From: an uncultured Gemmatimonadales bacterium
GTDB lineage: Bacteria > Gemmatimonadota > Gemmatimonadetes > Gemmatimonadales > GWC2-71-9
Length of the DNA stretch: 64,000 nt
Assembly (NCBI GenBank): GCA_947259405.1
Contig: CAMYLY010000011.1
Location: 62,001 to 126,000, forward strand
Direction: 5' to 3'
Under the pieces are notes generated by a model. That model searched no databases. It had not been told where the DNA came from and worked only from the letters and a program-made list of their open reading frames with translations. Of the stretch, positions 22,528 to 51,906 are shown in pieces. The translations under genes and the position numbers were made by a program. Within the stretch, counting starts at the first letter, position 1, and each line of letters begins with the position of its first letter.

Positions 22528-23193
22528 TCAAACCAGATAGACGATAGTGAACAGGATGATCCACACGAGATCGACGAAGTGCCAATACAGGCCGATGACC
22601 TCCACCCCGCGGTGGTCAGTGGCCGTGTACTTGCCTTGGAACGCCTTGATCGTCACGTACACCATACAGATGACGCCCATGGTCACGTGAAATCCGTGGA
22701 ATCCCGTCATCGTGTAGAAGCTCGAACCGTAGATGTTTACGTTGGCTGGCAACTCTCCTGCGGCCGCGAGTTCCGCGAAGTGACTCCCCGCTACGTAGCC
22801 GCTCGGCACGAATCCCTCGTGGATGAGCTGCACGTACTCGAACACCTGAACGCTCACGAACGTCGCACCGATGAGCACAGTGGCGACGAGATAGAGCTTG
22901 AGCCCCTTCTGATCACCGTCGTGCACAGCCGCAAAGGCCTTCACCATGGTGACACTGCTGCAGATCAGTAAGAACGTGTTGACCGCCGTGACGGGGATGT
23001 TGAGAATCCCCCCTGGCTCCGCAAACGCCTCCGGTGTCCCAAAGCGCAGGATGATGTACGACCCGATCAACGCGGTGAAGAACAACACCTCGGAGCCGAG
23101 GAAGACCCACATCCCCAGCTTCTCGTTGTAGACGCCCGCCCCTATCTCCCGATGGGCTGGGGGATCCATGTAGGCCGCGTTTGCGTGCGCCAT
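22528..23193 (-). CDS. ctaE: cytochrome c oxidase subunit III
   Basis: 221 residues with about five helices, the short bacterial form. Signature stretches: KLGMWVFLGSEVLFFTALIG, a helix ending SSVTMVKA, and FYTMTGFHGFHVTMGV near the C-terminus, including the conserved histidine/glutamate pattern (HGFHV, and WHFVDLVWI at the end). It lies two bases after subunit I. It supports proton uptake and stability of subunit I. Confidence 0.94.
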   Translation of the reverse strand: MAHANAAYMDPPAHREIGAGVYNEKLGMWVFLGSEVLFFTALIGSYIILRFGTPEAFAEPGGILNIPVTAVNTFLLICSSVTMVKAFAAVHDGDQKGLKLYLVATVLIGATFVSVQVFEYVQLIHEGFVPSGYVAGSHFAELAAAGELPANVNIYGSSFYTMTGFHGFHVTMGVICMVYVTIKAFQGKYTATDHRGVEVIGLYWHFVDLVWIILFTIVYLV

Positions 23194-23195
23194 GG

Positions 23196-24968
23196 TCAGC
23201 TCCCCCTTCCGGCCGCTTCAGGCTCGAGGTCGCCCGGCAGCTTTTGATGTTGCGGCAGGAAGTCCTCCTCGACCTCCGGCGAACTGAACTCATAGGGTCC
23301 GCGATACACCGTCGGCACATCCGGCCAGTTCCCGTGTGGTGGTGGTGACGGCGTGGACCACTCGAGCCCATTGTCGTTCCACGGGTTCTCTGAGGCTTTC
23401 TTTCCGTAGAACCAGCTCAGGATGAAGTTGGCGGCGAAGATGACCTGCGACACCATCAACAGGAACGCGCTGATCGTCACGAATCGATTCGTACCAGACA
23501 GGTGCTGGAGGAACTCGTACTGCGATGGATCGTAGATCCGACGCATGTGACCCTGCAGACCGAGATAGTGCATCGGCCAGAACGTCAGGTTGAAGAACAC
23601 AAACGTCAGCGCAAAGTGCACGCGGCCCCACGCTTCGCTCATCATGCGCCCGAACATCTTCGGGTACCAGAACGTGATCGCCGCGAACAGCGCGAAGAGG
23701 CTGCCGCCAAACAGCACGTAGTGAATGTGCGCCACGATGAAGTACGTGTCGTGGATGTAGATGTCGACTGGCGTCGACGCCATGTAGACGCCGCTCAGGC
23801 CACCAATCACGAACATGGCCACGAACGCGATCGCGTTCAGCATCGGCACGTGGAGGGTCAAGTTGCCCCGCCACATGGTACCCATCCAATTGAACACCTT
23901 GATGGCCGAGGGAACGGCAATGAACATCGTCGAAATCATGAAGGTCATGCCCAGGGTGGGGTTCATGCCGCTCTGGAACATGTGGTGACCCCACACGATC
24001 CACCCAAGGAAGGCGATCGCGATGATGGCATACACCATCGAGTGGTAACCGAAGATCGGTTTGCGTGACCCGTTGGCGATGACCTCGGAGACCATGCCCA
24101 TGGCCGGGAGAATGAGGATGTACACCTCGGGGTGGCCAAAATACCAGAACAGGTGCTGCCAGAGGATGGGCTGTCCGCCTGCCGTGGCATTGAAGAAGCT
24201 CGTTCCGATGGTCTGGTCGAAGAACAGCATGATGGCGGCGCCCGAGAGAATCGGAATCGCGAGTACCACGAGAATGGCGGTGATGAACAGCGACCAGATA
24301 GACAGCGGCAACCGGAACCAGGTCATGCCCGGCGCACGCAGGTTCACTACCGTCGTGATGTAGTTAGTCGCACCCAGAATGGACGAGAGACCCAAGACCG
24401 CAATACTGAGCAACCAGAGTTGCTGCCCAGTCGCCACGCCAGTCCATTGTGGGTCCGCGCTCAGTGGCGCGTATTGGGTCCACCCGGCCTGCGAGTGCCC
24501 GCCCTCGACCCAGAAGCCGGCCATCATGATCACGGTCCCGATCACGGCAACCCAGAAGGACCACATGTTGATGCGCGGGAACGCCATGTCCTCGGCGCCA
24601 ATCTTGAGCGGGATGAGGTAGTTCCCGAACACGCCCACCAGCAGTGGCATCACGGCAAAGAACACCATGAAGGTGCCGTGCATCGTGACGAGGGAGTTGT
24701 AGAATTCCGGGAGCATGACCCCGCCGGAAACCATCGTCTCCGGGAAGATCCCTCCCAGCGGCATCGAGCCCTCTGGGAATCCCAGCTGCCACCGAATCGC
24801 CATCGCCATCATGCCGCCCAGGAAGAGCCCCACCAGGCTCAGCAGCAGAAACTGGACACCGATGATCTTATGGTCGGTGGAGAAGATGTACTTCCGTATA
24901 AAGGAAAGCTCGTGTCCGTGCCCCGCATGGACCGCATCGATCGGTGGCGCTGATGTCGCCATCGTCAC
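23196..24968 (-). CDS. ctaD: cytochrome c oxidase subunit I (A-family haem-copper oxidase)
   Basis: 590 residues, about 12 helices. Key sites are visible: STDHKIIGVQFL near the N-terminus, the CuB/tyrosine helix FGHPEVYILILP with the D-channel glutamate in HPEVY (A1 type), IVWGHHMF (CuB histidines), and the haem-ligand helix FIVAHIHYVLFGG. It reduces O2 to water and pumps protons. A GTG start at 24968 overlaps the subunit II stop by four bases; an ATG at 24962 is the alternative. The C-terminal ~60 residues are a charged cytoplasmic tail. Confidence 0.97.
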   Translation of the reverse strand: MTMATSAPPIDAVHAGHGHELSFIRKYIFSTDHKIIGVQFLLLSLVGLFLGGMMAMAIRWQLGFPEGSMPLGGIFPETMVSGGVMLPEFYNSLVTMHGTFMVFFAVMPLLVGVFGNYLIPLKIGAEDMAFPRINMWSFWVAVIGTVIMMAGFWVEGGHSQAGWTQYAPLSADPQWTGVATGQQLWLLSIAVLGLSSILGATNYITTVVNLRAPGMTWFRLPLSIWSLFITAILVVLAIPILSGAAIMLFFDQTIGTSFFNATAGGQPILWQHLFWYFGHPEVYILILPAMGMVSEVIANGSRKPIFGYHSMVYAIIAIAFLGWIVWGHHMFQSGMNPTLGMTFMISTMFIAVPSAIKVFNWMGTMWRGNLTLHVPMLNAIAFVAMFVIGGLSGVYMASTPVDIYIHDTYFIVAHIHYVLFGGSLFALFAAITFWYPKMFGRMMSEAWGRVHFALTFVFFNLTFWPMHYLGLQGHMRRIYDPSQYEFLQHLSGTNRFVTISAFLLMVSQVIFAANFILSWFYGKKASENPWNDNGLEWSTPSPPPHGNWPDVPTVYRGPYEFSSPEVEEDFLPQHQKLPGDLEPEAAGRGS

Positions 24969-25642
24969 TCTCCCGCGGCCGCAGCCGCTGTTTGCTCAGC
25001 CATCCACCGAGCGAAGTCGTCAGCGGTGTGCACGGTCACGAACGCCCGCATCCGATAGTGACCCAACCCACACAACTCCGCGCAGGCGATTTCGAACTCG
25101 CCGGGCTCCGTCGCCTCGAACCACACGTCGATCGTCTTTCCCGGTAATGCATCTTGCTTCACACGGAGATTGGGGACGAAGAACGAGTGGATCACGTCCT
25201 CCGTCGCAAGCTTGATCAAGACCGGTTGGTCGACCGGCACATGCAACTGATTCCGGACGACGAAATCATCGGCCGTGCCTAGACGGCCATCCGCCCCCGT
25301 GTACGTGGCATTCCACTCGAACTGCTTGGCGGTGAGGCCAAACACCATGGCGTCAGCCGGGGCGGCGTTTCGCCCCTTCACTTGATTCCACACGCCCCCG
25401 CTCATCACACCGATCACCACCACCGTCACCGCCGGAATTGCCGTCCAAATCACCTCGGCCTTCATGCTGCCGTGGGTATAGTAGGCCTTGCGTCCGGGCC
25501 GGCGCCGATACCGAATGACGAACCACAGAAGACCGAACTCGACGATCACGAACGCGATTCCGGTGATCACGAGAATCACGTAATAGATGAAATCGATGTC
25601 GCCGGCGAACGTCGAGTTCCCCGGAGGCAGCAGCCAGTTCAT
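24965..25642 (-). CDS. ctaC: cytochrome c oxidase subunit II
   Basis: I start at the ATG at 25642 (225 residues), where the hydrophobic N-terminus begins; the upstream frame is a shadow. Two transmembrane helices are followed by a cupredoxin domain with a complete CuA site: VIHSFF (His) and CAELCGLGHYRM (two Cys, Glu, His, Met). No cytochrome c domain is fused, so the donor must be separate, perhaps one of the c-type cytochromes encoded just upstream. Confidence 0.95.
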   Translation of the reverse strand: MNWLLPPGNSTFAGDIDFIYYVILVITGIAFVIVEFGLLWFVIRYRRRPGRKAYYTHGSMKAEVIWTAIPAVTVVVIGVMSGGVWNQVKGRNAAPADAMVFGLTAKQFEWNATYTGADGRLGTADDFVVRNQLHVPVDQPVLIKLATEDVIHSFFVPNLRVKQDALPGKTIDVWFEATEPGEFEIACAELCGLGHYRMRAFVTVHTADDFARWMAEQTAAAAAGE

Positions 25643-25652
25643 GAATGACCCC

Positions 25653-26399
25653 TCAGGATCCGAAGGAGAATTCGGCCGACGCCGATCCGCCGTCCTCGAC
25701 CGTGACGTCCATCGTCTGCGTGCCGAGGGTCTCGTGCCACGCTTCGAGCGTGTAGGTCCCGGCCGGGAGCCCGCTGATCGTGAAGGCCCCGTCCGCGCCC
25801 GATACCGCAAAGTACGGGTGCTCGACCACGCCAACGTACGCCTGCATCCAGCCGTGGACGCTGCACTCGAGCGGCACCATGACCTCGGCGGTGTTAAACG
25901 ATCGCGTGGAACTCATCACGCGTGGCTGCGAGATGTTGAATCCGCGGTTCGCCGTCGGCACGGCTTTGATGTTGTGCAGCAGGGGATCACTGTTTTGGAT
26001 CTCGAGATCCTGTCCGACCATCACGCCCACCACACGTGGCGTGTACAGACACCCGTCTTGGTCAATCACCGAGGGGCTCGAGGGCATCGGATACGGGCCT
26101 GCCGGCAGCCCGCTCGTGATCCGCACGAAGACATTCGCGAGCTTCCCATCCGCCACGACGACCACCGGGTCAGTCGGACCGTCGGCATATTTCGCCGCGC
26201 ACTCGGCCTCCTCAGCCATGTCGATCGCGGGGTTGGCGGGGGCCATGCCGCTGAAGTTCACGACGCCCATGATCGACGCGGTACCGAGAGCCGCGACCGC
26301 GGCTTCACCCCCACCGCCGCCACTGGATTCGCCGCCACTTTCTCCACCACCACCGCACGCTACGCTGAGCAGGACCGGAACGGCCAGAATACGTCGCAT
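25653..26399 (-). CDS. cupredoxin-like lipoprotein with CarboxypepD_reg tail
   Basis: 248 residues; lipobox LSVAC (Cys15) followed by a Gly/Ser-rich linker. Residues ~45-190 look like the plastocyanin/'methylamine utilisation protein' cupredoxin, with copper-ligand candidates in DPLLHNIKA (His), LECSVHGWM (Cys, His, Met). The last ~60 residues are a transthyretin-like carboxypeptidase-regulatory domain (GADGAFTISGLPAGTYTLEAWHE). It lies 10 bases before the CuA subunit gene, so electron or copper delivery to the oxidase is plausible. A second protein of the same plan is at 62995-63660. Confidence 0.82.
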   Translation of the reverse strand: MRRILAVPVLLSVACGGGGESGGESSGGGGGEAAVAALGTASIMGVVNFSGMAPANPAIDMAEEAECAAKYADGPTDPVVVVADGKLANVFVRITSGLPAGPYPMPSSPSVIDQDGCLYTPRVVGVMVGQDLEIQNSDPLLHNIKAVPTANRGFNISQPRVMSSTRSFNTAEVMVPLECSVHGWMQAYVGVVEHPYFAVSGADGAFTISGLPAGTYTLEAWHETLGTQTMDVTVEDGGSASAEFSFGS

Positions 26400-26431: not shown

Positions 26432-28000
26432 TTAGGTTGATCGCCGCTGGGCCTGAATCACGACCACCAGGCCAAGTCCAGCGGTCAGCAATGTAGCCAC
26501 GACGGGCGCGATGAACACCCGCGGCGGCAGGGGCACGTCGAGATAGACCGCATACCACGCGCTCACCGCACCCCGTACGTCATCTTCGGCGTTGGTACCG
26601 TCCGCCACGTAGAATGCCATGGGCATCGACTCTCCGGGGGTGAAACTGGCGGCCACGCCCGGATCGCTGGCGGTCAGAGACCGGGTAAACTGCACTTGCC
26701 ACCGCCCATTGGCAAACGCCGCTCCATGGGTCAGATCCGAGCCCGTTCCCGACGCGAAGGTCCCGAGGCCGGTCGCAGTGCCCTCTTCAGCCATATCGGG
26801 GTTACTCCGCCAGCGGATCTGGTACACCGGATTCCGCGCATCTCCCGCAAGGAAGTAGGGGAGCACCGTACCTTCGGGCGGGGTCAAAGGAAATTGGACC
26901 GCGAGATGGTCTGGTCCCTGGGCCTCGAGATGTGGTGCATCGGGCGCGACCATCGACGTCACGACTCCGTCGAAGAAGGGGTCCCATGCCTCGTCGGGAC
27001 TCGCCGAGGCGTCGTCCCACGAAAACTGCAGGGCCATCCCTTCGCCGTTGTGCAGGGCTCTCACCCAAAGGCCGTCCACGGCCGGCGCGAACCAACGCGG
27101 CGCCTCGAGGATCTGTCCCACCATGGGGATGTAGAGGGCCTCGACGTCGTTCCAGGCCGGGTCCTCTGGCCCGTTTGGGAGGTCGCCTTCGACAAACGCG
27201 GCGCGCACCACATCCTGGCGCCGGGGAGGCGCATCGGGAGACAGACTTCGAACATACTGCGCCACGCGCCAGAGCTGTTCCTCGGTAATGATTCCGGCAT
27301 CGATGGCGTCTCCGTTGGAGGGCATCGGTGTCCCGTCCACACCTACGCGGATCCGCATAAGGATGTCCTCGACCGAACCGCCGCCGTTGAAAGTCCAGTT
27401 CTCGGTAAGGTTCGCGGCACGTATAGGGAACCCGTCATCGTCGGTAAGCTCGGGGGCCGACCCGCCGTCACCGCGCCCCTCGGCGCCGTGGCACTTGATG
27501 CACTCCACCTCCTCCTCGAAGAGCCGCCGACCTTCGGCTAATCCCTCGTCTGTAACCCGTGGAGCGCGTGCAACCGCAACGGGCTCCGGTTGGCCATCTT
27601 CGAAAAACCGTGAGAAGCTCTTGATGTAGGCCACGACATCGTCCCGATCCCCCGGTCCGAGTTTGTCTTTCCACCCGGGCATGGTGGATCCTGGCATCCC
27701 GTTGTCCACGATGTACCGCAGATCGTCGTCCGTCGGCAGCTCGCCGTTCGAGGTCGTTCGGATTTGGTAGATCGCGAACGTGAAATCGCGCGGTCTGGGA
27801 AGCATATAGTCGGCGGCCGGCCCGTCGCCCTGGCCCGTCATACCGTGGCACCCCGCACACCACTTGTCGTAGAGCGCCTTGCCATTCTCGAGATCCTGAG
27901 CACGGAGCACACCGGGGAGGCCAGCAACGAAGGCGAGCAGAATGGTTGAGGCAGCGCTCAATCTGCATGCTGCAACCTGCAATCTGCCGTGGTTAGTCAT
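26432..28000 (-). CDS. dihaem c-type cytochrome with ethylbenzene-dehydrogenase-like haem domain
   Basis: The ATG at 28000 has a good ribosome site (GGAGAGG) and overlaps the upstream gene by eight bases; 522 residues. Signal peptide, then two cytochrome c domains (CAGCH and CIKCH), then a C-terminal ~200-residue domain (LWVRALHNGEGMALQFSWDD, HGAAFANGRWQVQFTR) like the gamma subunit of ethylbenzene dehydrogenase, which binds haem b. A C-terminal helix anchors it. Such proteins relay electrons between a membrane core and soluble partners. The start of the long frame at 28081 is rejected. Confidence 0.88.
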   Translation of the reverse strand: MTNHGRLQVAACRLSAASTILLAFVAGLPGVLRAQDLENGKALYDKWCAGCHGMTGQGDGPAADYMLPRPRDFTFAIYQIRTTSNGELPTDDDLRYIVDNGMPGSTMPGWKDKLGPGDRDDVVAYIKSFSRFFEDGQPEPVAVARAPRVTDEGLAEGRRLFEEEVECIKCHGAEGRGDGGSAPELTDDDGFPIRAANLTENWTFNGGGSVEDILMRIRVGVDGTPMPSNGDAIDAGIITEEQLWRVAQYVRSLSPDAPPRRQDVVRAAFVEGDLPNGPEDPAWNDVEALYIPMVGQILEAPRWFAPAVDGLWVRALHNGEGMALQFSWDDASASPDEAWDPFFDGVVTSMVAPDAPHLEAQGPDHLAVQFPLTPPEGTVLPYFLAGDARNPVYQIRWRSNPDMAEEGTATGLGTFASGTGSDLTHGAAFANGRWQVQFTRSLTASDPGVAASFTPGESMPMAFYVADGTNAEDDVRGAVSAWYAVYLDVPLPPRVFIAPVVATLLTAGLGLVVVIQAQRRST

Positions 28001-28769
28001 GTTCCTCTCCTTCCTCACCCCACGTGCGAGGCTCGAGCCCCGACTGCTCGTAGAGGAACATGGTGACCGCCCAGATTTCATCCTCCGTCAAAAAGTCTTC
28101 CCACACCGGCATCGCGGAATTCCACGGCGTGCCTTCGCGAGGGAGTCCCGGCCCACCCTTCGCGATCCGCCAGAACACAAAGCTCTCTTGCAGATTGTCG
28201 ATGGTGCCGGCTCGATCGAACGCGAGGGGCGTCGGGTTGAACCCGTGGCCAAAGTGCCCCTGCCCGTCGAGGAGGTCGCCGTGGCAGGGCATGCAGTTCT
28301 GGTAGTAGATCGCCTTGCCGGTTTCGTAATGCTCCTCGAGGGAGCCACGGGAGCGCAGCGGGTTTTCGAGTCCCTCCAATGCCAGGGATCGGCCCTGAAA
28401 CGTGATCTGGCCCGGCGGCGCCGGATGAATGGAACGGAGCTGCGCCGTCGACCCTACGGTTGGCCGAGCCGCCTGGAACACGACGAACCCGATGAAGAGC
28501 GGGATCACCGTCAGGAGCCCCCCTCGTAGCCATTTCTTGTTTGCGTCGACCAGCGTCGCCGTGATCGGCGCCTTGAATTGGGTCCATCGCTCTTCGTTCT
28601 CGCTGACGTAGACCAAGACACCGACGGCCGCGATCAGGGTGAACTGCAGGACAACACTCTGGGGGACCGGCGCGCTTCCCGGAAACAGCGGGATCACGAA
28701 CTTGAAGAACGCCCATGATCCCACGATCAAGAGCACCGCCTGCGTAAACGGGTGTTTGAGATGCTTCAT
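27993..28769 (-). CDS. membrane-anchored monohaem cytochrome c
   Basis: 258 residues. Three N-terminal transmembrane helices (AVLLIVGSWAFFKFVIPLF, VVLQFTLIAAVGVLVYV, LLTVIPLFIGFVVFQAA) are followed by a periplasmic domain with one haem motif (CMPCH, about residue 160) and candidate Met ligand in NSAMPVWEDFLTEDEIW. It overlaps both neighbours by 4-8 bases, so it belongs to the respiratory operon and probably to the same complex. Confidence 0.9.
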   Translation of the reverse strand: MKHLKHPFTQAVLLIVGSWAFFKFVIPLFPGSAPVPQSVVLQFTLIAAVGVLVYVSENEERWTQFKAPITATLVDANKKWLRGGLLTVIPLFIGFVVFQAARPTVGSTAQLRSIHPAPPGQITFQGRSLALEGLENPLRSRGSLEEHYETGKAIYYQNCMPCHGDLLDGQGHFGHGFNPTPLAFDRAGTIDNLQESFVFWRIAKGGPGLPREGTPWNSAMPVWEDFLTEDEIWAVTMFLYEQSGLEPRTWGEEGEEHD

Positions 28770-29551
28770 TGTCTTGCCGCCAAGAATTGGACGATGATCT
28801 CCAGTTGCGCTGCGGACAATTGGTCACCAAAGGTCGCCGGCATCATGCCCGCGAACGCCTCGTAGCCCTCCGCGATTTCCGCTTCAGGATCAATGATTCC
28901 CGTCCGGATGCGGTCGGCGCTGATACGGGATCCCATACCATCGAACGCCGGGCCTACCGGAGCACCCGCACCCTCGAGCTGATGACATCCAATGCAGGCG
29001 TTTTCCGTCAGCAGCTGCACGGGATCCGTGGTGGCGGTACGCGCTGGCGCTGCTCCCGACGATGCCGGCGCGCTAGGCGCACTTGCGCTCGCCCCGATGT
29101 CGTCGGCTGTCACGGTGACCTCGCCGCCGAGTGACTCCAGATACGCGACGACGGCCCAGATCTGCTCGTTTGACAGTTGGCGCCGTGCGTCGGGCATGAT
29201 CGGCGGGAACCCCTCGATGAGATACGCCCCAGGATCGATCATCGATTCATAGAGGTATTCTTTGCAGCCCTGCTCACGCGACCCACAACGTTCACCGATG
29301 GTCCCTTCGCCCGCATGGTCCGTTCGCAGATTCGGGGCCCGGGTTCCCAGCCCGTGGCAACTGGTGCAACCTGCGCCCCCCATGAATAGGTCCTCGCCGG
29401 CTGTGACCAGAACCTCCGGTGTCACACCGGCGGACAGATCGAGAGCCTCGGGCACTTCCGATTCGAGCTGCGGAATGACCTGTGCAATGATGGTATAGAA
29501 CGCAATCACGGCGAGGCCAACGGCAAGCACTTTGATATTGGTTAGGAACAT
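28766..29551 (-). CDS. membrane-anchored dihaem cytochrome c
   Basis: 261 residues with one N-terminal helix (IKVLAVGLAVIAFYTIIAQVIP). Two cytochrome c domains carry CTSCH and CIGCH, with Met candidates in FPPIMPDARR and FAGMMPATFG, separated by a low-complexity Ala/Ser linker. Extra Cys residues occur in GERCGSREQGCKEY. It starts four bases after the CydA-like stop on the minus strand and overlaps the next cytochrome by four bases. Confidence 0.9.
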   Translation of the reverse strand: MFLTNIKVLAVGLAVIAFYTIIAQVIPQLESEVPEALDLSAGVTPEVLVTAGEDLFMGGAGCTSCHGLGTRAPNLRTDHAGEGTIGERCGSREQGCKEYLYESMIDPGAYLIEGFPPIMPDARRQLSNEQIWAVVAYLESLGGEVTVTADDIGASASAPSAPASSGAAPARTATTDPVQLLTENACIGCHQLEGAGAPVGPAFDGMGSRISADRIRTGIIDPEAEIAEGYEAFAGMMPATFGDQLSAAQLEIIVQFLAARQ

Positions 29552-29555
29552 GCGA

Positions 29556-31277
29556 TCACCCTCCCGTAACCGCTTGCGGTTGCCCGATGGGCGCAGGCTT
29601 CTTGCTCACCGCACGCTCTGCCAGGCCGCCAAGCCAGAAGATGAACGCGACGAGCCCGAGGAAGATGACCACTGTCAGGCTGATCATGTTGGCCGCATAC
29701 CCAAGGGCAGGCGTCACGGCGCGATCACTGGTGTCGCGCATCACTTCCCACACATGCCAATGCTGTCGGATACCGCTCCGAGCAAATCCCATGAGCCCCA
29801 TGAGCCACGTAAACGTGACGGCGAGCACGAAAATCGCGTACTGCGAACGGTCTGGCATTTCACCCCAGCGGATCTCCCCGCGCGATTGGGATCCACGCAT
29901 GAGGAAGATGTCGATCGCCCAAACCCCGATGATGCACGCCAGCACCGCGGCGACTTGATACACGCTGTAGCTGATACGTGTGATGGTCGGCACGAAGTAC
30001 CCGTATATCCCCAGCCACAGCACATACGCCGAGGACAGCACAAACATGGCACCTTGTGTCAGCGTTCCCGCCTTGGCCCATGTCACCGTCGGGATACGGT
30101 TCCCGCGGCGGTACATCAAGAAGGAAAGGAACGTCGTCAGGATCATGAAGTTGACCGCCGTGTTCTTACCGCTCATGAGCCCGAGGACACCCAGGAAGGG
30201 ATGCCTGGAGCCACCCATCGCTGCGAATTCGTCACGGCTCGCGATCATGGTGTTGGGCGTCCCCCAGACGATCCAACAGACAATGAGCACCAGCAACATC
30301 CACTTGGTGTACGGCAGGAACCGTTCGGCACCGGGAATTCGTCCCATGCCGGTCCACAGGTAGTAGTTCGCTGCCAAGAAGAGCACACCGATGAGGATGG
30401 CTTGCACGATCCACAGCCAACTCATGAACCCGCCCATCATGGTCACGCCCATTTGCTGGCTGTACTCGTACATCTCACGCCCTAGCCAGTACCCGGCGAA
30501 GGGAAGCACCACGAAGGTCGCGATCGCGATGAACGTCCCTACGTACCCCATCCAGTCATAATGCGCCTTCTCTTCCGGGGTCTTGGCAGCGAGGAAGCGA
30601 TACGCGGCGTACGCGGCGACGATCGATCCGCCGAAGACGGCGTTGGCGATCAGGCGATGGATGTTGATGGGCATCCAGGTGGCGTTGGCAATCGCGTTCC
30701 ACATGGTCACCCCGTCGGGTAGTCCCTCGGCGACCGTGGTGCCTTCCGGGGGGGACATCATGTAGGTGAGCCACCCGTTCGCGATGAACATCACGATGGT
30801 GCCCCACACGTTCAGCAGGAGTCCGAGCCCCCAGTGGCCCCACTTGGCGCGCCCGGACTTCCAACGATCCCACCCGTAGTAATACAGGTAGAGCGTGAAG
30901 GACTCCACGAAGAACAACCCCGCGTAGATCCACATCGACATCGAGAAGATGTCCGCCATGTGTCCCCAGAACGCCGGGTAGAGTGTCGTCAGCAAGAACA
31001 ACAGCATGCCACCCCAGAGCGCTGTGGCACTGTACGCGAACACCAGCAGTCGCGTGAACTCTTTCGAAAGCTTGTCGTACCGCTCGTCCTTGCCCACGAT
31101 CCCAATCAACTCGGTAATGACAGCGAACATCGGGACACCGAGCACGAACGCGGCGAACATGAGGTGGACTTCGGCCGCAATCCACACCGCCCCCCGACCC
31201 CCCACGGCCGGAAAATCACCGTAGCTGCGGCCCGCTTCCGCCGCGGCCTGCAGCAGCGTGAGGAAATCAATCATCAT
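29556..31277 (-). CDS. CydA-like (cytochrome bd superfamily) membrane subunit, no CydB partner
   Basis: About 573 residues from the ATG pair at 31277/31274; the stretch to 31349 overlaps the radical SAM gene. I count roughly 13 helices, against nine for E. coli CydA. Two haem histidines are retained by eye: EVHLMF (His38) and NIHRLIAN (His207). The acidic helix keeps one Glu (FVESFTLY, Glu125) but not the second. No Met matching the b558 ligand is evident in WLWIVQAIL, and no cydB is nearby. It fits the divergent OR-N/OR-C branch of the superfamily, with neighbouring c-type cytochromes as probable redox partners. Confidence 0.82.
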   Translation of the reverse strand: MMIDFLTLLQAAAEAGRSYGDFPAVGGRGAVWIAAEVHLMFAAFVLGVPMFAVITELIGIVGKDERYDKLSKEFTRLLVFAYSATALWGGMLLFLLTTLYPAFWGHMADIFSMSMWIYAGLFFVESFTLYLYYYGWDRWKSGRAKWGHWGLGLLLNVWGTIVMFIANGWLTYMMSPPEGTTVAEGLPDGVTMWNAIANATWMPINIHRLIANAVFGGSIVAAYAAYRFLAAKTPEEKAHYDWMGYVGTFIAIATFVVLPFAGYWLGREMYEYSQQMGVTMMGGFMSWLWIVQAILIGVLFLAANYYLWTGMGRIPGAERFLPYTKWMLLVLIVCWIVWGTPNTMIASRDEFAAMGGSRHPFLGVLGLMSGKNTAVNFMILTTFLSFLMYRRGNRIPTVTWAKAGTLTQGAMFVLSSAYVLWLGIYGYFVPTITRISYSVYQVAAVLACIIGVWAIDIFLMRGSQSRGEIRWGEMPDRSQYAIFVLAVTFTWLMGLMGFARSGIRQHWHVWEVMRDTSDRAVTPALGYAANMISLTVVIFLGLVAFIFWLGGLAERAVSKKPAPIGQPQAVTGG

Positions 31278-32652
31278 GGCGCATGAAGAACGGTAGGCGT
31301 TTCGAAAAATCGACTGGCATCTTTTTCCGCACTTCCTGCAGGAGTTCAACAGTGATCATCTCATATCCTTCTCGTCGTGCATAGGCTTCGACGCGTTGAA
31401 CCACCACGCCGCGCACGAACGACGGGATACGGCGCATACGTTGCTCGGCGTCGGGTGCCCACTGCATCTCGGCCCGCGGCGCACCGCCGTAGCTCATGGC
31501 AGGTGCCGCGACCAATGGTCGATCACCCGTCGGCTCGTAGGCGCAGGCGGGATCGCTGGCTAGGTAGTCACCGGTTTCCGCAAACGCGCGTGCACGACAG
31601 CCACCACACACCACCCGGTACTCACAGCGACCGCAACGCCCCTCGAGCTGCTGCGTTCGCAAGCCATGGAACAAGGCGGACTGATGCCAGACGTCACCAA
31701 ACGACGTCGTGCGTAGGTCACCTGCGGGTTCCGGCAGGTACGGGCATGCCGTGAGCTTGCCGTCCGGCGTAATCCGACAATAGTGCACCCCACAGGGACA
31801 CCGCGTGGGGTAGTTGAGGATCGGCGAGTCCGGGACGCGCTCACGTACGATGCGCATGAACTGCGGAGCGCACTTGGAACGCACCATCATGCGTCCCAGA
31901 TACTCGCGATGGAGATCGACCAATTCCGTCAGTAGCTCCTCGACGTCAATCGGAGAGAGGGCATGCATGCCCGCGCCGCGACCGGTGGTGACGAGGAAAT
32001 ACGCATTGAAGGCAACCGCGCCTTGGTCCGCCGCCCACGCGACCAGGCTGGCAAGCTCACCACGATTGCCCTTCGTGAGGGTGGTCTGGATCACGAAGTC
32101 CATCGCGAGCGTACCCAGGCGCGCAACCGCCTCGAGCGCCTGGTCCAACGAACCGTGGCCGCGACGAAAACGGTCGTGATACGTCGGGTCGAGCGATTCG
32201 ATGCTCACCGCCACCCCGGTCACGCCCGCGGCGTGCAGCGCGCGGATGCGGTCTTCGGTCAGCAACGTGCCGTTGGTGCCCACCACGACGGTCGCCCCGC
32301 GATCGACGGCGTAGCGGGCAATCGTTTCCAGATCGTCGCGCAGCAACGGCTCGCCACCTGAGAGAATGAAGAGCGGCGCCGGATTCAATGCCAGGATTTG
32401 ATCCGTGATTCGGAGAATTTCGTCGGTCTGGAGCTCACCATCGACCGACGCACCGGGGCCGGCGGCGATGTAGCAGTGGGCGCACTCGAGATTGCAGCGC
32501 TTCGTGAGATTCCAGGCGACCACATGCGGGATTACGGCGCCCGTCGCTTCCTTCTGCTGTGGCGCCTCACCGAGAAGGGCGAGGGGAGCGAGCTCCACGT
32601 GCGCGCTCGTCTTAGGCGGGAGTATCCGTGGTTTCCACCGCGTCCCGTCCAC
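31267..32652 (-). CDS. radical SAM/SPASM protein with C-terminal PCP_red domain
   Basis: 461 residues. The radical SAM cluster motif is CNLECAHC (Cys53, 57, 60), followed by GGEPLLR and a TIM-barrel pattern. A SPASM region (~320-375) has CPCGVHYC, CPYL and CGRCEYRVVCGGC for auxiliary Fe-S clusters. Residues ~394-445 are a PCP_red domain (WAPDAEQRMRRIPSFVRG). It resembles haem-modifying enzymes such as NirJ/AhbC in layout, but the substrate is unknown. It overlaps the upstream gene by 41 bases (a GTG at 32598 would avoid this) and the CydA-like gene by 11, pointing to a role in maturing that protein. Confidence 0.88.
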   Translation of the reverse strand: MDGTRWKPRILPPKTSAHVELAPLALLGEAPQQKEATGAVIPHVVAWNLTKRCNLECAHCYIAAGPGASVDGELQTDEILRITDQILALNPAPLFILSGGEPLLRDDLETIARYAVDRGATVVVGTNGTLLTEDRIRALHAAGVTGVAVSIESLDPTYHDRFRRGHGSLDQALEAVARLGTLAMDFVIQTTLTKGNRGELASLVAWAADQGAVAFNAYFLVTTGRGAGMHALSPIDVEELLTELVDLHREYLGRMMVRSKCAPQFMRIVRERVPDSPILNYPTRCPCGVHYCRITPDGKLTACPYLPEPAGDLRTTSFGDVWHQSALFHGLRTQQLEGRCGRCEYRVVCGGCRARAFAETGDYLASDPACAYEPTGDRPLVAAPAMSYGGAPRAEMQWAPDAEQRMRRIPSFVRGVVVQRVEAYARREGYEMITVELLQEVRKKMPVDFSKRLPFFMRHDD

Positions 32653-34645
32653 CCTTCATAAACTTCTCGACCGCGGCCTTCGCTTCCTCCGCTGAAACCG
32701 TCTTCATGTCGACAGGGCACTTCTCCATCTGATCTTCGATGTCCCTGATGGGACACCGCGTCATCCCGGAGGCTTTGGCCTCTTCGATGAACTTCCGCAT
32801 GTCCGTGGACAACGCGTCGCCCCCTTCGGCTTCCGCGCGGATCTGCTTCGCGCGCAGCTCGCGGAACATGCCCATCATGGTCTCGGCGTCGAACTCCTCG
32901 GCGTCGATCATTGCCTGTTTGTTTTCGTCCATGACCGACGTCGTAATACGCCAGTGCGCGTGACTCCGCGCGAACTTCTCCACGGTGTTCCGGGCGAGTG
33001 GCCGCGCGATCAACGGCACTGCCCGTAGCCGATCAAATGCTTCAGCGGTCCAGACGGGCGGGTCCACCGACGTCCGCTCACGGGTCGTGGTGTGATAGGG
33101 CGGAACCGGACACTTCACCTCGATCATGCGCCCTGGCGGTTCAGTGTCGGTGTCACTTCCCAGCACGACCGTCTTGGCCATTTGTTCTTCGGCCTTCACC
33201 TCCGCTCGCGCGACTTCTTCGGCCGACCCGATGCCCATGATGATCTGCATGTGCGTTGGGAGGAGCTTCTCGATCGCCTGATCCAGCCACCTGTTGGTCA
33301 CCGTGTCGCCGCCCCGCTCCATCACGAACTCCTCCACCGCGCGACGGGCAATGCCCTGCGCGAACGGCGGAACCCGAAGAATCCGAACCTCCGCATCCGG
33401 AGCCCAGGCCAGTCCTGCCTCTCCATCTTCTGCGATCCACGGGATGTCTTCAGGCTTGATCCCCGAGGACCCAGTCACCAACACGCTGCACGGAGCAAGG
33501 CGCACAAGGTTCTCCACCTGCGACCCCATCTCCGTCCCGTCGATCCGATGCGCACCATGGCGCCCGACAATGAGCAGTGAGGGTTCGACCTCCTCGACCC
33601 ACTGCATGACCACCTGAAACGGCTTCCCAACGAGGATCTGGGTTTCGATCTCAACGTCAGGAAACTCCTGCGCCATCACCTGGGCCCGCTTGATGTTCGC
33701 TTGGCAAAGCTTGAGCAAGCCTTTGTCGATGATGTTGTTGTGCAGTTCTTCCTGCTCCTCGAATTTGAACACCTTCGACGCGCGCACCGACAGCACGTCC
33801 TTGATGTTGTTGAAGACGTCGTGGTGGTACTCGACGTCGAAGGCCGAACACACATACACCTTCGCGTCGAAGTCCCGCGCCATTGCCAATGCCACACGCA
33901 TCGCCTGGTAGCTGTACGCGGATCCGTCGACGCAGACCATGAAACGCCCACCCGCCAGCGTCGCGTCGTCACGCACGACCATCGTGTCCTTCTCGACGCC
34001 GCGGACCACTCGTCCAACCACGCCTCCCAGTTGGGAATATTGTTGGCGACCGATTCCATGCGCGCCGATCACCACAAGGTCGTATTTGCGGCCCGACGTG
34101 CCGGCAAGCCTGTCTTCTTCGGCACTGTCGTCATCGGCGACGATGCGACCGTCCACCCCTAGCGCGACATCAGTGCGCGTTCGCTCACCCCCATCGTAGT
34201 TGGCCGCAATGGTCGGATCGAACCCGATCAGGCTCGGAAGCGTCCCCTCACCACCGTTGGCCTCGCGTACCAACTCTTCATAGTTGATCCCCTCCAGGAG
34301 CTGCCGGCGGAGCGGCACCCCAGCCTCCTCACACCGGTTCTCGACCTGATCGAGAAAAGAGTCCGAGATAAGCTGGAGCCCCTTCTCGATGAGCTTGTCA
34401 TGGACCTTTCTTTGACGCTTGATCTCTTCCGGCGTCTGGAACTGCGCCGGTAGCCCCGTCTCGAGTTGTCGGAACCGGATGTCGTGCAGCCGCGCAGCAT
34501 AGACGTGGTTGCCCGTAATCCGTCCCTCCCACTTCTGGCAAAGCTCAATAGCCCGGCCAACGGCCCAATCTGAATGTTGTGAGTTGTCGACGGGAACGAA
34601 GACTTCGCGATAGAGGACTGCCTGACCATTGTCAGACGTTCGCAT
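32612..34645 (-). CDS. tandem universal-stress-protein with two PCP_red domains
   Basis: The ATG at 34645 has a GGGAGG ribosome site; 677 residues. Residues ~14-232 and ~234-393 are two UspA-like domains; the second keeps CVDGSAYS and the nucleotide motif VGRHGAHRIDGTEMGSQ. Two PCP_red domains follow at ~411-463 (WAPDAEVRILRVPPFAQG) and ~530-582 (WTAEAFDRLRAVPLIARP). The C-terminus has a Cys pair (CPIRDIEDQMEKC). No signal peptide; cytoplasmic. The combination is unusual. It starts a block with the radical SAM and CydA-like genes, so an assembly or stress-dependent role is inferred. Confidence 0.85.
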   Translation of the reverse strand: MRTSDNGQAVLYREVFVPVDNSQHSDWAVGRAIELCQKWEGRITGNHVYAARLHDIRFRQLETGLPAQFQTPEEIKRQRKVHDKLIEKGLQLISDSFLDQVENRCEEAGVPLRRQLLEGINYEELVREANGGEGTLPSLIGFDPTIAANYDGGERTRTDVALGVDGRIVADDDSAEEDRLAGTSGRKYDLVVIGAHGIGRQQYSQLGGVVGRVVRGVEKDTMVVRDDATLAGGRFMVCVDGSAYSYQAMRVALAMARDFDAKVYVCSAFDVEYHHDVFNNIKDVLSVRASKVFKFEEQEELHNNIIDKGLLKLCQANIKRAQVMAQEFPDVEIETQILVGKPFQVVMQWVEEVEPSLLIVGRHGAHRIDGTEMGSQVENLVRLAPCSVLVTGSSGIKPEDIPWIAEDGEAGLAWAPDAEVRILRVPPFAQGIARRAVEEFVMERGGDTVTNRWLDQAIEKLLPTHMQIIMGIGSAEEVARAEVKAEEQMAKTVVLGSDTDTEPPGRMIEVKCPVPPYHTTTRERTSVDPPVWTAEAFDRLRAVPLIARPLARNTVEKFARSHAHWRITTSVMDENKQAMIDAEEFDAETMMGMFRELRAKQIRAEAEGGDALSTDMRKFIEEAKASGMTRCPIRDIEDQMEKCPVDMKTVSAEEAKAAVEKFMKGGRDAVETTDTPA

Positions 34646-34654
34646 GTACCCTCC

Positions 34655-34670
34655 CGTGCCACGAGGCACG
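34655..34670. promoter_or_regulatory. leader hairpin next to the ribosome site of the stress-protein gene
   Basis: CGTGCC-ACGA-GGCACG, a 6-bp stem, partly overlapping the region just upstream of the GGGAGG ribosome site of the minus-strand gene starting at 34645. A second small inverted repeat (CACGG-N5-CCGTG) lies at 34715-34729. The 121-base gap is the only real spacer inside this cluster, so it may hold an internal promoter; I see only a weak AT-rich block (TATCATATT on the minus strand). Confidence 0.4.
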
Positions 34671-34766
34671 TTAAGAGCGGGATGGTTTCAATGATCGACG
34701 CGCAATATGATACTCACGGACCGGCCGTGACGGGATGGGCGAGTATGAGAGTCAGCCTTCACCCTG

Positions 34767-35009
34767 TCAAGGGACGATCTGTTGTCCTTTTGTGTCCAGA
34801 ATCATGAGGGCGTCGACTGGACAGATCTCACAGGCCCGTCGCAGCGTTTCCGCGTCGACGGTGCCCGGATCAATGAAGATCGCCACGCTCTCGGCATCCA
34901 GATCGAAGGCGTCAGGAGCCGCCTCCACGCAGTCCCCGAATCCCACACACAGCGTGCGGTCGATGCGGATCGTCCAGCCGTGGGCCTGCCGTTCGTCGAT
35001 CGCCGGCAC
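34767..35009 (-). CDS. small ferredoxin, probable [3Fe-4S] type
   Basis: 80 residues. CVGFGDC (Cys21, Cys27) and CEICPVDAL (Cys60, Cys63) surround the cluster. The central Cys of the usual C-x2-C-x2-C is Phe24, which is typical of [3Fe-4S] ferredoxins; Cys60 is extra. It starts one base after the stop of the zinc-ribbon/PCP_red gene and likely supplies electrons to the radical SAM enzyme or another partner in the cluster. Confidence 0.88.
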   Translation of the reverse strand: MPAIDERQAHGWTIRIDRTLCVGFGDCVEAAPDAFDLDAESVAIFIDPGTVDAETLRRACEICPVDALMILDTKGQQIVP

Positions 35010-35435
35010 TCACATTTCCTCGAGGCCCAAGTCGACGCGCGCCTCGTCCATGACATCGGGCGTGATTTCGGAGATCCCCCGCTCCATCGCCCATTCGTTG
35101 TAGATCTTCATGACCATCCCGCGGACGAAGCTCGGTACGCGGTCCAGGCGACTGCGACTCTCAGGAGTCCACGCCGGTCGACCGTGGCCGGCGAGTTTGC
35201 CCTCCGCTCCCTCGACGTGGGATTTGACGAGGTGGAGTGGATCCTGGTCAAGCGTATTACCACCGATCGTCACGCCGAGCGACCCCACCAGATGCGTCTC
35301 CATGGGGTTGGCAAGCATCGCTACCCGTCTCCCGCAGGTGGGGCAGGCAAAGGCGGCGGCAAAGGTCCCGTCCCCCGGTTCTTGACGGTCGAAGAACTCC
35401 ATCTGTGCGTCGCAGTCGATGCAGAGGAACTTCAT
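35010..35435 (-). CDS. zinc-ribbon protein with PCP_red domain
   Basis: 141 residues. The N-terminus has two Cys pairs (CIDC at 5-8 and CPTCG at 31-35), a likely zinc or iron ribbon. Residues ~87-139 are a PCP_red domain (WTPESRSRLDRVPSFVRG...ITPDVMDEAR). Its ATG overlaps the stop of the Mrp-like gene (ATGA) and it abuts the ferredoxin gene. The PCP_red family is named after the 57-kDa subunit of light-independent protochlorophyllide reductase; no other sign of chlorophyll synthesis is present here. Confidence 0.87.
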   Translation of the reverse strand: MKFLCIDCDAQMEFFDRQEPGDGTFAAAFACPTCGRRVAMLANPMETHLVGSLGVTIGGNTLDQDPLHLVKSHVEGAEGKLAGHGRPAWTPESRSRLDRVPSFVRGMVMKIYNEWAMERGISEITPDVMDEARVDLGLEEM

Positions 35436-36265
35436 AGCAGTCTCTCGAGTACGCGGTCCACGAGTCCTGGAGCGTCACCGACCGCGTCGGCTGGCGATCG
35501 GCCCGGTCGGAGCGGAAGCCGGCCCAGCAACGGCAGGTCGAACTCGGTAGCCAGCGCGGCTCCGGCGTCTCCATCGAAGAGCGGGCCTGGCTCCCCGCGA
35601 TCTGGGCTGTGATACGCACTCATGTTCTCGACGATGCCGGCGAGTGGCATGTTCACGTCCTGTGCCGCCTGAATCGCCCTTGCGACGGAGCGACGTGACT
35701 CCTCCGTCGGGATCGTCACGACCAATCCGTGCGCCACAGAGGGAATCAGGGTCATGAGGTCTTTCGCCGCGTCGGCGCCGGGTGGAAGATCCACGACCAG
35801 GAGATCGAGCTGACCCCACTCGACGTCCGCGAGGAATTCGCGGAGCATCCCCACCTCGAGCGTACCCCGCCAGACAAACTCTTCGGAAGATGCCCCTCTC
35901 CAACGCAGGGGTGCGTCTTCGTCGAGCACTAGATCGGACGAGACCACACGGACACCCCGATCGCCCACCGCCGGAAGCATCGCGACATCCGTCATGTTGA
36001 GTGGGCCGGCGTTGAGCAGTCGCCCAACGGTGGGGCTATTCAAATCGGCGTCGAGCACTCCCACCGCCTTGCCGGCCTCGCTCGCGGCCGTCGCCAACAC
36101 GGATGCCACGTAGCTCTTCCCGACGCCGCCCTTCCCACTCATGACTGCCACGACGCGGTCGATGGCCCCCAGCCGCTCGGTCACCCGAGCACGCTGCGCG
36201 GCGACCTGATGGGCTAGTTGCGAGCGGTCCTTGCCGGGCACGTCGTGATACGTCCGGTATCTCAC
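35432..36265 (-). CDS. Mrp/NBP35-like P-loop ATPase lacking the CxxC motif
   Basis: I choose the GTG at 36265 inside the upstream stop (GTGA), giving 277 residues; the frame to 36505 is a shadow. Deviant Walker A is SGKGGVGKS (residues 43-51), followed by LDADLNSPTVGRLL and VVDLPPGADAA, the Mrp/ApbC pattern. Canonical Mrp proteins have a CPxC after 'ENMS' that holds a bridging Fe-S cluster; here that place reads ENMSAYHSPDRG (213-224) with no Cys. It may therefore move or insert something other than Fe-S, or act as a switch ATPase for the cluster. Confidence 0.9.
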   Translation of the reverse strand: MRYRTYHDVPGKDRSQLAHQVAAQRARVTERLGAIDRVVAVMSGKGGVGKSYVASVLATAASEAGKAVGVLDADLNSPTVGRLLNAGPLNMTDVAMLPAVGDRGVRVVSSDLVLDEDAPLRWRGASSEEFVWRGTLEVGMLREFLADVEWGQLDLLVVDLPPGADAAKDLMTLIPSVAHGLVVTIPTEESRRSVARAIQAAQDVNMPLAGIVENMSAYHSPDRGEPGPLFDGDAGAALATEFDLPLLGRLPLRPGRSPADAVGDAPGLVDRVLERLL

Positions 36266-36651
36266 AGATCCCACCCTGCCCTGGCCAGCATCCAGAGGTT
36301 GATCACGACCACGATGATCGCGGTGACGTAGAACGAGGGCGGCATACGCGAGGCTTGGTTGACGATGAACGCCCCGCGAATCAGCGCTGGGAGCCGGAGC
36401 CCATGCAGGACCCACACGATTCTCGCCACCCACGCGTTTTGCAGCGAATACAATGCCCAGACGATGGCGGCGGCGAAGAGCGCGCCAAGGAGCAGGAATA
36501 TCCACGGTGGTCCGAACCGCGACGGGAGTATCCCGGCACCCATCATGACATATGCTGCTGCCTCGTACAAAATGGCAACGTGCAGATAGGCAAACGCCGC
36601 CTGCCGGAACTTGCGTTGCCTAGCCTCCGGCCATGTTTGACGCCACCTCAC
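36262..36651 (-). CDS. four-helix integral membrane protein
   Basis: 129 residues; about four helices (FAYLHVAILYEAAAYVMMGAG, WIFLLLGALFAAAIVWALY, VLHGLRLPALIRGAFIV, YVTAIIVVVINLWMLA). No family recognised. It is the first gene of the cluster and overlaps the Mrp-like gene by four bases. It may anchor the ATPase or be a subunit of the CydA-like complex. The start is 57 bases from the divergent HmuY-like gene. Confidence 0.7.
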   Translation of the reverse strand: MRWRQTWPEARQRKFRQAAFAYLHVAILYEAAAYVMMGAGILPSRFGPPWIFLLLGALFAAAIVWALYSLQNAWVARIVWVLHGLRLPALIRGAFIVNQASRMPPSFYVTAIIVVVINLWMLARAGWDL

Positions 36652-36708: not shown

Positions 36709-37326
36709 ATGATCACTCCAAGCGTGGAAGGTACAGCACCGGCCCGGTCCACGGCTGCCCCCTACGTGTTGGGTGGAGTGCTCGTGCTCTTCGTCGTGCT
36801 CATCGGCTACCTCGTGGCCGGCGCGATGGCGCCGCGCGAAGCCGCCGAGTTCGCCCCGAGCCCCATCGAGCCTCGCGGGCAGGCGGCCTCGCTCGTCGTC
36901 GACACCATCACGATCGACGCGCGGGAGCCCAACACCTGGCAGTGGTTTAGTTTCGGAACCCGCAGCGTGGTCGCGAGCCCGACAGCCGGGTGGGACCTGG
37001 GCTTTCGTCGCTTCAGCATCATCGCGGCGCGCGGGGCTCAAGATCTCGGCATCATAGCGTTTGACGCGGTGGTCGAAGTACCGAAAGCATCCTACGCCAC
37101 TACCGAGTTCGGGTCTGATACCACGCTCGCTGTCTTCGACGCCTGGTACGCCTACAGCTGGATCACGCACTTGCTCGAGCCCAGCGATCACGTGTATGTG
37201 GTGGAGACGCGGAATGGCGGCCACGCGAAGCTGACATTTCTGAGCTATTACTGCCCGGAGCTGGAGGCGGGTTGTATCACATTCCGCTACGCGTACCAAC
37301 CCAACGGTTCGGGACGATTCCAGTAA
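36709..37326 (+). CDS. membrane-anchored HmuY-like protein
   Basis: 205 residues: an N-terminal transmembrane helix (~19-41) then a beta-rich domain with the HmuY-family pattern, VDTITIDAREPNTWQWFSF, WDLGFRRFSIIAARG and a C-terminal KLTFLSYYCPE...CITFRY. HmuY of Porphyromonas is a haem-binding lipoprotein; binding residues are not conserved enough to call by eye. It is divergent from the cluster headed at 36651 and may share a promoter region, so a haem or haem-c related task in the same complex is plausible. Confidence 0.65.
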   Translation: MITPSVEGTAPARSTAAPYVLGGVLVLFVVLIGYLVAGAMAPREAAEFAPSPIEPRGQAASLVVDTITIDAREPNTWQWFSFGTRSVVASPTAGWDLGFRRFSIIAARGAQDLGIIAFDAVVEVPKASYATTEFGSDTTLAVFDAWYAYSWITHLLEPSDHVYVVETRNGGHAKLTFLSYYCPELEAGCITFRYAYQPNGSGRFQ

Positions 37327-38757: not shown

Positions 38758-39495
38758 CTACAGAATCGCGACCAGACGGAGCGCCATGAGCAGGAACGCG
38801 AGGGCGATGAAGAATCGGACGACCCGCTCACCACCACGCACCGAGATATGGGTGGAGACCACCGCCCCGGACGCGTTGCCAGCACCGAGCACGAGGCCGG
38901 TGATCCACTCCACGTTGCCGGTCAGCGCGAACACGGCAATCGCCGGAATCGTATAGAGACCGATCGCCATGACCTTGTACATGTTGACCCAATTGAGGCT
39001 CATGCCGAGCGCTTGGTAGAGGACGGCTAGAAACAGCAGCCCGACCCCAGCCTGAATGAACCCACCGTAGAACCCGACGCCCAGCATGGCGACATAGCTC
39101 CACCACGGCAGGACCGGGCGGGCGTTACCGTCGTCGCGCTTTTTCGGTGGAACGAGCATGGCAATGACGGCGACCGCGAGAACGGCGGCTAAGATGGCGC
39201 GAAACGTCTCGTCGGAGACCTGGACCGAGATGAACGCGCCGGCAATGGCACCGGGGAGCGCGGCGAGTGCCAACCGGACGCCATTGTGCGGGTCGAAGAT
39301 CGCCTTGCGGCGGAAGCCCTCCACGGCCGCGACGTTCTGAATCAGGATCGCAATCCGATTCGTTCCGTTGGCGAGGGGGGCGGGAAGCCCGAGGAACAAC
39401 AGTGCCGGTAGGGTTATCAGCGAGCCTCCACCGGCCATCACGTTGATGATGCCGGCTGCGAATCCGGCACCGAAGATCAACGCGTAGAAACTCAC
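38758..39495 (-). CDS. TauE/SafE-family sulfite/organic anion exporter
   Basis: Start GTG at 39495 overlaps the stop of the Rieske/glutamate-synthase gene (GTGA), giving 245 residues. About seven or eight helices; FGAGFAAGIINVMAGGGSLI is the first TauE repeat and VGFYGGFIQAGVGLLFLAVL the second. The family exports sulfite, sulfoacetate or similar anions. Translational coupling to the upstream redox enzyme suggests a shared substrate, possibly a sulfonate or organic acid; this is inference. Confidence 0.88.
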   Translation of the reverse strand: MSFYALIFGAGFAAGIINVMAGGGSLITLPALLFLGLPAPLANGTNRIAILIQNVAAVEGFRRKAIFDPHNGVRLALAALPGAIAGAFISVQVSDETFRAILAAVLAVAVIAMLVPPKKRDDGNARPVLPWWSYVAMLGVGFYGGFIQAGVGLLFLAVLYQALGMSLNWVNMYKVMAIGLYTIPAIAVFALTGNVEWITGLVLGAGNASGAVVSTHISVRGGERVVRFFIALAFLLMALRLVAIL

Positions 39496-48887: not shown

Positions 48888-49738
48888 GGTAAGCCTCCGA
48901 TCAATGTCTGCAGCACATCCGCCAAGTGTTCCGCTTCGTCCCGCAAATCACGGGCAAACCTGAGTCGCAGGCGTCCTTGCTTGCTCGTGGGCATGTTCTC
49001 GACCGACTTCATGGCGCGAGCTTGAATGGTAATCTCTGCACTAAACATCCTGCGTTTGAACTTGATCCACGAGATCTCGGCGACCGGAAGTGTGGAGACT
49101 TTGACATCGCTCCTGAACGCACCGAGAAAGGCGTCCTTGGTCTGATGTTCGATGATCACGTCCTCATCTTCGACTCTGATCATGCCCTCGCTCTCGCTCA
49201 CAAACGCATCGGGATCGTGGAACTTGAACGCGAGCACGGGGGCGTGAACAACCGCGGCGCGGTTCTCCACGTCAACCAGTTCTTCCGGCTCCACAACCGC
49301 GGGGACGACACTGGCCGGGTCAAACGTCTCCTCCCGAACGGCAAACACCAAGCGATACTCGATGTCGGCCGTGTACTCTTTCCCCACTGCGAACTCCTGA
49401 CCCGGCGAAACGCCACTCAGCTTGGTCTCGAGCAACCGACTCAATCGTCGCAGGTCCGCCGCACGACCGTACACGCTCTCATCGTCGATCCCCGGCCGCT
49501 CCCAGATGCGGATCTTGAAATCCGCATAGGGACCGACCACCATCGTCCCGGCAGCTCCGTCGGCATCCGCTTTATCCGCCTGCGCTTTCAGCATACGAAC
49601 GAGCGTGCGCAAGCCCGTGATCGATCCGGTGAACCTCCAGACGTGAGCGGCAGTATCGGGCTCGTGGTAGAAACCGAGCGTGCGCCATTCTTCGCCCGTG
49701 TCCGAACTGGGAACACGCGTGTTCCGAGTCTCGGTCAC
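48884..49738 (-). CDS. hypothetical protein with PH-like C-terminal region
   Basis: 284 residues from the GTG at 49738 that overlaps the upstream stop (GTGA); a GTG at 49747 is the alternative. No signal or transmembrane segment. The N-terminal part is mixed alpha/beta (VWRFTGSITGLRTLVRMLKAQ). The C-terminal ~95 residues have the strand order of a bacterial PH-like domain (VIIEHQTKDAFLGAF, VAEISWIKFKRRMFSAEITIQ) ending in a helix (DEAEHLADVLQTLI). No function is recognised. It is coupled to the arginase-like gene. Confidence 0.7.
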   Translation of the reverse strand: MTETRNTRVPSSDTGEEWRTLGFYHEPDTAAHVWRFTGSITGLRTLVRMLKAQADKADADGAAGTMVVGPYADFKIRIWERPGIDDESVYGRAADLRRLSRLLETKLSGVSPGQEFAVGKEYTADIEYRLVFAVREETFDPASVVPAVVEPEELVDVENRAAVVHAPVLAFKFHDPDAFVSESEGMIRVEDEDVIIEHQTKDAFLGAFRSDVKVSTLPVAEISWIKFKRRMFSAEITIQARAMKSVENMPTSKQGRLRLRFARDLRDEAEHLADVLQTLIGGLP

Positions 49739-51801: not shown

Positions 51802-51906
51802 TGGGAAAATGCCCAGGCTCCGCCGGGAACGCGAGCGAGGTGGCAGCTTCGGGCGACACTTGGACATGGAGTGGACTATTATAAAGGAAGAGAGAAACGA
51901 GAACCC

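Follow-up and report, generated by a model that had tools for sequence, protein, structure and literature searches.

Gene content of the locus

The window, that is, the whole stretch of DNA analysed (64,000 nucleotides), comes from a Gemmatimonadota assembly (3.06 Mb, 61% complete) and contains a long run of genes on the minus strand in which a set of accessory genes precedes those of a respiratory complex. The first gene encodes a small membrane protein (36262..36651) with approximately three helices predicted from hydropathy; it has no family match, was assigned by synteny and is present in part of the loci. It is followed by the genes for an Mrp/NUBPL-like P-loop ATPase (35432..36298; PF10609, 184 bits; start uncertain), a Zn-ribbon protein (35010..35435) with conserved CxxC...CxxC cysteines and a PCP_red domain (PF08369), a small ferredoxin (34767..35009; PF13370) with [3Fe-4S]-like cysteine spacing and a conserved CVGFGDC...CP motif, a tandem universal-stress protein that ends in two PCP_red domains (32612..34669; PF00582 and two matches to PF08369), and a radical SAM/SPASM enzyme with a C-terminal PCP_red domain (31267..32652; PF04055, PF13186, PF08369). 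The CydA-like, bd-like core (29556..31277; PF01654, ligand mapping, approximately 13 helices predicted from hydropathy) comes next. The first-pass annotation of this DNA had described these genes as overlapping or abutting, and indeed 31267 is the last base of the radical SAM gene and the ATG of the CydA-like gene lies at approximately 31277, and the ferredoxin and Zn-ribbon genes meet at 35009/35010. The other genes that it named were all recovered, with matches to Radical_SAM plus SPASM, Usp and ParA/NUBPL (Mrp ATPase) and with a ferredoxin whose C-x5-C...CP spacing is [3Fe-4S]-like.

That annotation had also proposed four PCP_red domains in three unrelated proteins. A search with the PF08369 profile, using its curated gathering cut-off of 32.5 bits and converting the coordinates from the genome to the window, placed all four segments above the cut-off (40.3-58.9 bits), at positions that agree with the proposed ones within approximately 20 bases: one in the radical SAM enzyme (31327-31461, 58.9 bits), two in the universal-stress protein (32918-33052, 42.1 bits; 33275-33406, 40.3 bits) and one in the Zn-ribbon protein (35037-35171, 48.7 bits). 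PCP_red was found again with hmmscan, with E values from 4e-12 to 7e-19 per protein. The carriers are indeed unrelated: the radical SAM enzyme resembles AhbD and NirJ2, the universal-stress protein, which has two of the copies, is a tandem one, and the third carrier is a Zn-ribbon protein. Neither the ferredoxin nor the Mrp protein has the domain, and the source assembly contains no matches beyond these four. Conservation within PCP_red is copy-specific, and a search for an axial haem ligand revealed no His, Cys or Met conserved across all four copies. In the structure models, which resolve domain folds only, the USP part of the universal-stress protein matches tandem USPs, for example Rv2623 and TTHA0350; its second USP domain includes a GX2GX9GS-type motif resembling an ATP site.

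Downstream of the CydA-like gene, the minus strand encodes a membrane-anchored dihaem cytochrome c (28766..29551; PF00034, two CXXCH), a membrane monohaem cytochrome c (27993..28769; PF13442, one CXXCH, approximately three helices), and a fusion of a dihaem cytochrome c with an ethylbenzene-dehydrogenase-gamma/NxrC-like haem b domain (26432..28006; PF00034, PF09459, two CXXCH), which scores 88 bits with TIGR03477, under the cut-off of that model. These are followed by a cupredoxin-like secreted protein (25653..26399), assigned by synteny and by a copper-site-like motif recognised by eye (CSVHGWM), for which Pfam gives only a carboxypeptidase-regulatory-like domain, and by the haem-copper oxidase subunits II, I and III (CoxB, CoxA and Cox3; 22528..25645; PF00116, PF00115, PF00510). 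On the other side, a gene on the plus strand (36709..37326) that diverges from the module encodes an HmuY-like protein of a haem-binding family (PF14064, 37 bits, cut-off 27), and this gene recurs beside the module at many other loci. Elsewhere in the window, a glutamate-synthase-type FMN domain is fused to a Rieske domain (39492-41126; PF00355 and PF01645), and a cyclophilin-type peptidyl-prolyl isomerase is fused to HEAT repeats (49735-52116).

The CydA-like protein had been called an oxidase core. Its relationship to CydA holds (Cyt_bd_oxida_I, 70 bits, cut-off 26), but its activity as an oxidase is not established. According to a profile alignment that is weak in the C-terminal half, H40, E127 and H209 (counting from position 31283) are equivalent to H19, E107 and H186 of E. 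coli, while equivalents of E99, M393 and E445, as well as the Q-loop, are absent; O2 reduction by this protein is therefore putative. Helices replace the Q-loop region, and H150, H361 and H510, which are invariant, may also be ligands. The protein has in common with canonical CydA the Pfam family and the three ligand equivalents, and it differs from canonical cytochrome bd in the missing E99, M393, E445 and Q-loop, in its extra helices and in the lack of CydB in the run. The missing Q-loop and the extra helices fit the published description of bd-like proteins.

A cluster with the same four-gene content, formed by a bd-like protein (bd-like_3), a membrane-anchored NxrC-like protein with two haem c motifs (alt_NxrC_2) and two membrane cytochromes c, is described for Nitrospira, Nitrospina and Kuenenia in two reports, where a part in nitrite oxidation is proposed for it (PMC6606698, PMC3578206). 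For Nitrospina, the reports also name cupredoxin-like and zinc-finger genes; their passages on this cluster make no mention of PCP_red accessory genes. In contrast with those clusters, a haem-copper oxidase adjoins the genes studied here and an NXR-type alpha subunit is absent. This subunit (TIGR03479, E <= 1e-80) was detected in none of the 52 Gemmatimonadota genomes with a CydA-like gene, and its only two occurrences among 200 genomes (G102 and G003) are in CydA-like-negative ones. A role as a substitute for complex III was rejected: NrfD, the marker of alternative complex III, is present in 198 of the 200 genomes, so the respiratory complex does not simply replace it. Cytochrome b is rarer where the CydA-like gene is present (16/52 versus 96/148), which is not decisive for complex III substitution.

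Co-occurrence with the CydA-like gene and movement of the accessory genes

The association of the accessory genes with the CydA-like gene, on which the reading of the first-pass annotation depended, exceeds chance by far. With the CydA-like gene called at E below 1e-200, it was found in 52 of 200 Gemmatimonadota genomes, and the PCP_red radical SAM gene was present in 52 of these 52 and in one of the 148 CydA-like-negative genomes (G160); these are raw genome counts, and as the Fisher values calculated from them ignore shared ancestry, the argument is built on the counts. Among the Methylomirabilota, 57 genomes have both PCP_red and the CydA-like gene, two have only the CydA-like gene, seven only PCP_red and 29 neither (64 PCP_red-positive and 59 CydA-like-positive genomes). 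In one of the seven (G281, locus L201) the contig begins inside CoxA, so the CydA-like gene may be cut off; assembly gaps likely explain as well why G160 and G016 have the accessory genes and no detected CydA-like gene. In several Methylomirabilota (G278, G263, G294 and similar genomes) we observed second CydA-like paralogues with 50-54% identity, and some of the contigs contained more PCP_red matches.

The block is nearly unchanged in the loci from the module-positive genomes among the 200 Gemmatimonadota, and it recurs in most of 80 loci from a named collection where the contig is long enough. Since the order of the genes is nearly fixed in dozens of genomes, the set is not a product of chance. 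The Methylomirabilota loci contain the same genes in different orders. The loci matched by the Zn-ribbon family are mostly from Gemmatimonadota, with one from Rokubacteria (L147) and a few others.

The Rokubacteria locus is a mosaic. In FastTree phylogenies from one taxon sample, its radical SAM, USP, Zn-ribbon and Mrp proteins fall inside Gemmatimonadota (support 0.998, 0.996, 0.849 and 0.999, respectively), whereas its CydA, dihaem cytochrome c and NxrC-like proteins fall inside Rokubacteria (0.999, 0.93 and 0.998), as if the accessory genes had moved as a unit relative to the core; as a MAG, this genome may contain an assembly error. It has four PCP_red matches in all, and because every one sits in this cluster, a native PCP_red set is apparently absent. 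The GC content is even throughout the stretch, so composition neither dates nor excludes a transfer. At another locus (L081), the core is Gemmatimonadota-like, and the radical SAM and Mrp proteins group with Methylomirabilota.

As far as sequence comparison can tell, the PCP_red identity, the near-absolute co-occurrence, the linkage conserved in two phyla, the movement as a unit and, with these, the link between module and core are well supported. A set of helpers that tracks its core in two phyla provides testable candidates for the missing assembly factors of bd-like complexes. What is at issue is how these complexes acquire their haems, and what they do, in nitrite-oxidising, anammox and soil bacteria. 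No description of the module was found in the open-access literature on the domain.

A candidate haem maturation module

The best NCBIfam models for the radical SAM enzyme were NirJ2 (TIGR04055, 292 bits) and AhbD (TIGR04545, 281 bits), both under their cut-off of 500, and the peptide-maturase model PqqE reached 101 bits. The enzyme contains C53-x3-C57-x2-C60 and eight SPASM cysteines, and these eleven residues are at least 97% conserved among 84 sequences. In this set, the AuxII cysteines (C340/343/349/352/370) match exactly the CX2CX5CX2CX17C spacing which, together with CX3CX2C, is reported for AhbD (PMC10452713). The enzyme shares with AhbD haem synthase and NirJ2 the CX3CX2C motif and the full set of SPASM cysteines with AhbD spacing, and differs from them in scoring under both cut-offs, in carrying PCP_red and in that most of its hosts have ChdC as coproheme decarboxylase.

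ChdC (PF06778) was detected in 49 of the 52 CydA-like-positive and in 40 of the 148 negative genomes, raw counts that may merely track the same clades. The PF06778 family includes chlorite dismutases as well, so some of these matches may not be ChdC. Within the window's own family, ChdC was present in 15 of 17 positive and in none of 27 negative genomes. Across the 200 genomes, HemN is nearly confined to the CydA-like-negatives (1/52 versus 28/148). In 18 genomes, ChdC is encoded on the same contig as the CydA-like gene and at most 28 kb from it; in the source genome it is on another contig. HemE lies beside the core-linked ChdC in several loci, and HemH in some. HemE, ChdC and at times HemH lie beside the respiratory cluster at L203, L204, L205, L207, L208, L209 and L210.

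Taken together, the AhbD-type cysteine spacing, the ChdC/HemE/HemH linkage and the HmuY-like neighbour indirectly support haem as the probable substrate. From the sequences, we consider it slightly more probable than the opposite that the five genes from Mrp to radical SAM form a dedicated module for maturation and insertion of haem into the adjoining CydA-like/cytochrome c complex. According to this proposal, the accessory module would prepare haem and then deliver it to the CydA-like subunit. Coproheme or a related haem would be the substrate of the AhbD/NirJ2-type enzyme and the ferredoxin its reductant, the Mrp ATPase could be an Fe-S carrier or an energy source, and the tandem universal-stress protein could provide a scaffold. 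Because three distinct proteins of the module carry PCP_red and its conservation is copy-specific, a docking role appears plausible; from this we infer a shared docking or tetrapyrrole-handling domain, which on its three partners would pass the haem along. A more specific version, tentative and in our view rather unlikely, is an undescribed system for both modification and delivery of haem. In it, PCP_red would be a portable tetrapyrrole-handling domain shared by the radical SAM enzyme, the Zn-ribbon protein and a scaffold that binds ATP, and the product would be a non-standard haem used by the bd-like complex alone.

It is less likely still that the radical SAM enzyme has the role of AhbD, synthesising haem b without oxygen for general use whenever ChdC is limited by O2 or peroxide, with PCP_red as a partner-binding domain. 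The AhbD-type motif, the presence of a coproheme-pathway enzyme in most of the positive genomes and the proximity of the ChdC, HemE and HemH genes to the core in some of them are consistent with such a role; nevertheless, a general synthase need not be tied to one core, yet this gene accompanies it in all 52 core genomes and adjoins it in most, and the AhbD score falls short of its cut-off. The frequency of ChdC in the CydA-like-positive genomes itself weakens a role as sole haem b synthase.

We assign a somewhat lower probability to the possibility that the radical SAM/SPASM enzyme modifies the CydA-like protein or a cytochrome, for example by a crosslink, and that PCP_red docks this protein substrate. 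Most of the SPASM enzymes studied act on peptides, and the peptide-modifying PqqE, SkfB and SuiB were the top fold matches of the structure model (mean pLDDT 77), in a match list that contained neither an AhbD nor a NirJ structure. However, SuiB is also reported as the nearest structure of the AhbD model itself (PMC10452713), so the fold matches do not separate the haem and peptide readings. Against the peptide reading, the haem-enzyme models give the best scores (292 against 101 bits for PqqE), the cysteine spacing is that of AhbD, and among the larger reading frames no gene for a small precursor peptide was noticed.

That the PCP_red proteins, rather than being maturases, belong to the respiratory complex as cytoplasmic subunits or regulate it, sensing ATP or redox state through the USP domains, seems improbable. 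The ATP-type motif in the second USP domain and the constant linkage with the respiratory complex are in agreement with this possibility, but it leaves unexplained why a radical SAM enzyme would retain all its cysteines and why an Mrp ATPase is present, and the accessory genes are found rearranged and displaced with respect to the core. In the preferred reading of a haem maturation module, haem as the substrate, the role of PCP_red and the delivery to CydA are the inferred parts.

PCP_red outside the chlorophyll context

PF08369 was counted among the phototrophy families in a recent trait survey (PMC12815261). PCP_red is the C-terminal domain of the DPOR subunit BchB/ChlB and is what this subunit has in common with the module proteins, in which the nitrogenase-like catalytic domain is absent and PCP_red is attached to radical SAM, USP and Zn-ribbon proteins. 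That the module is a remnant or a variant of chlorophyll (DPOR) biosynthesis is hardly credible, since the DPOR_BchB models reached at most 50 bits with the module proteins (cut-offs of approximately 490-509), essentially through the PCP_red end only (44 versus 490 bits for BchB), the BchL model reached 14.5 bits (cut-off 345), the run lacks a BchN/B/L core, and the BchB proteins that other loci of the phylum encode are full-length and different in kind. The first-pass annotation had already seen nothing beyond PCP_red that points to chlorophyll. A chlorophyll role was accordingly rejected on the sub-cut-off DPOR scores and the separate full-length BchB. The helper set places PCP_red in a setting other than chlorophyll synthesis and, given its presence here in loci without chlorophyll genes, a match to PF08369 is not by itself a safe sign of phototrophy.

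PCP_red is present in 21 CydA-like-negative Gemmatimonadota genomes. Full-length BchB was confirmed in two of the negative genomes with strong PCP_red matches (L012 and L014) and in one CydA-like-positive genome (L007); judging from the length of the reading frames, the PCP_red of the remaining negative genomes probably belongs to BchB too.
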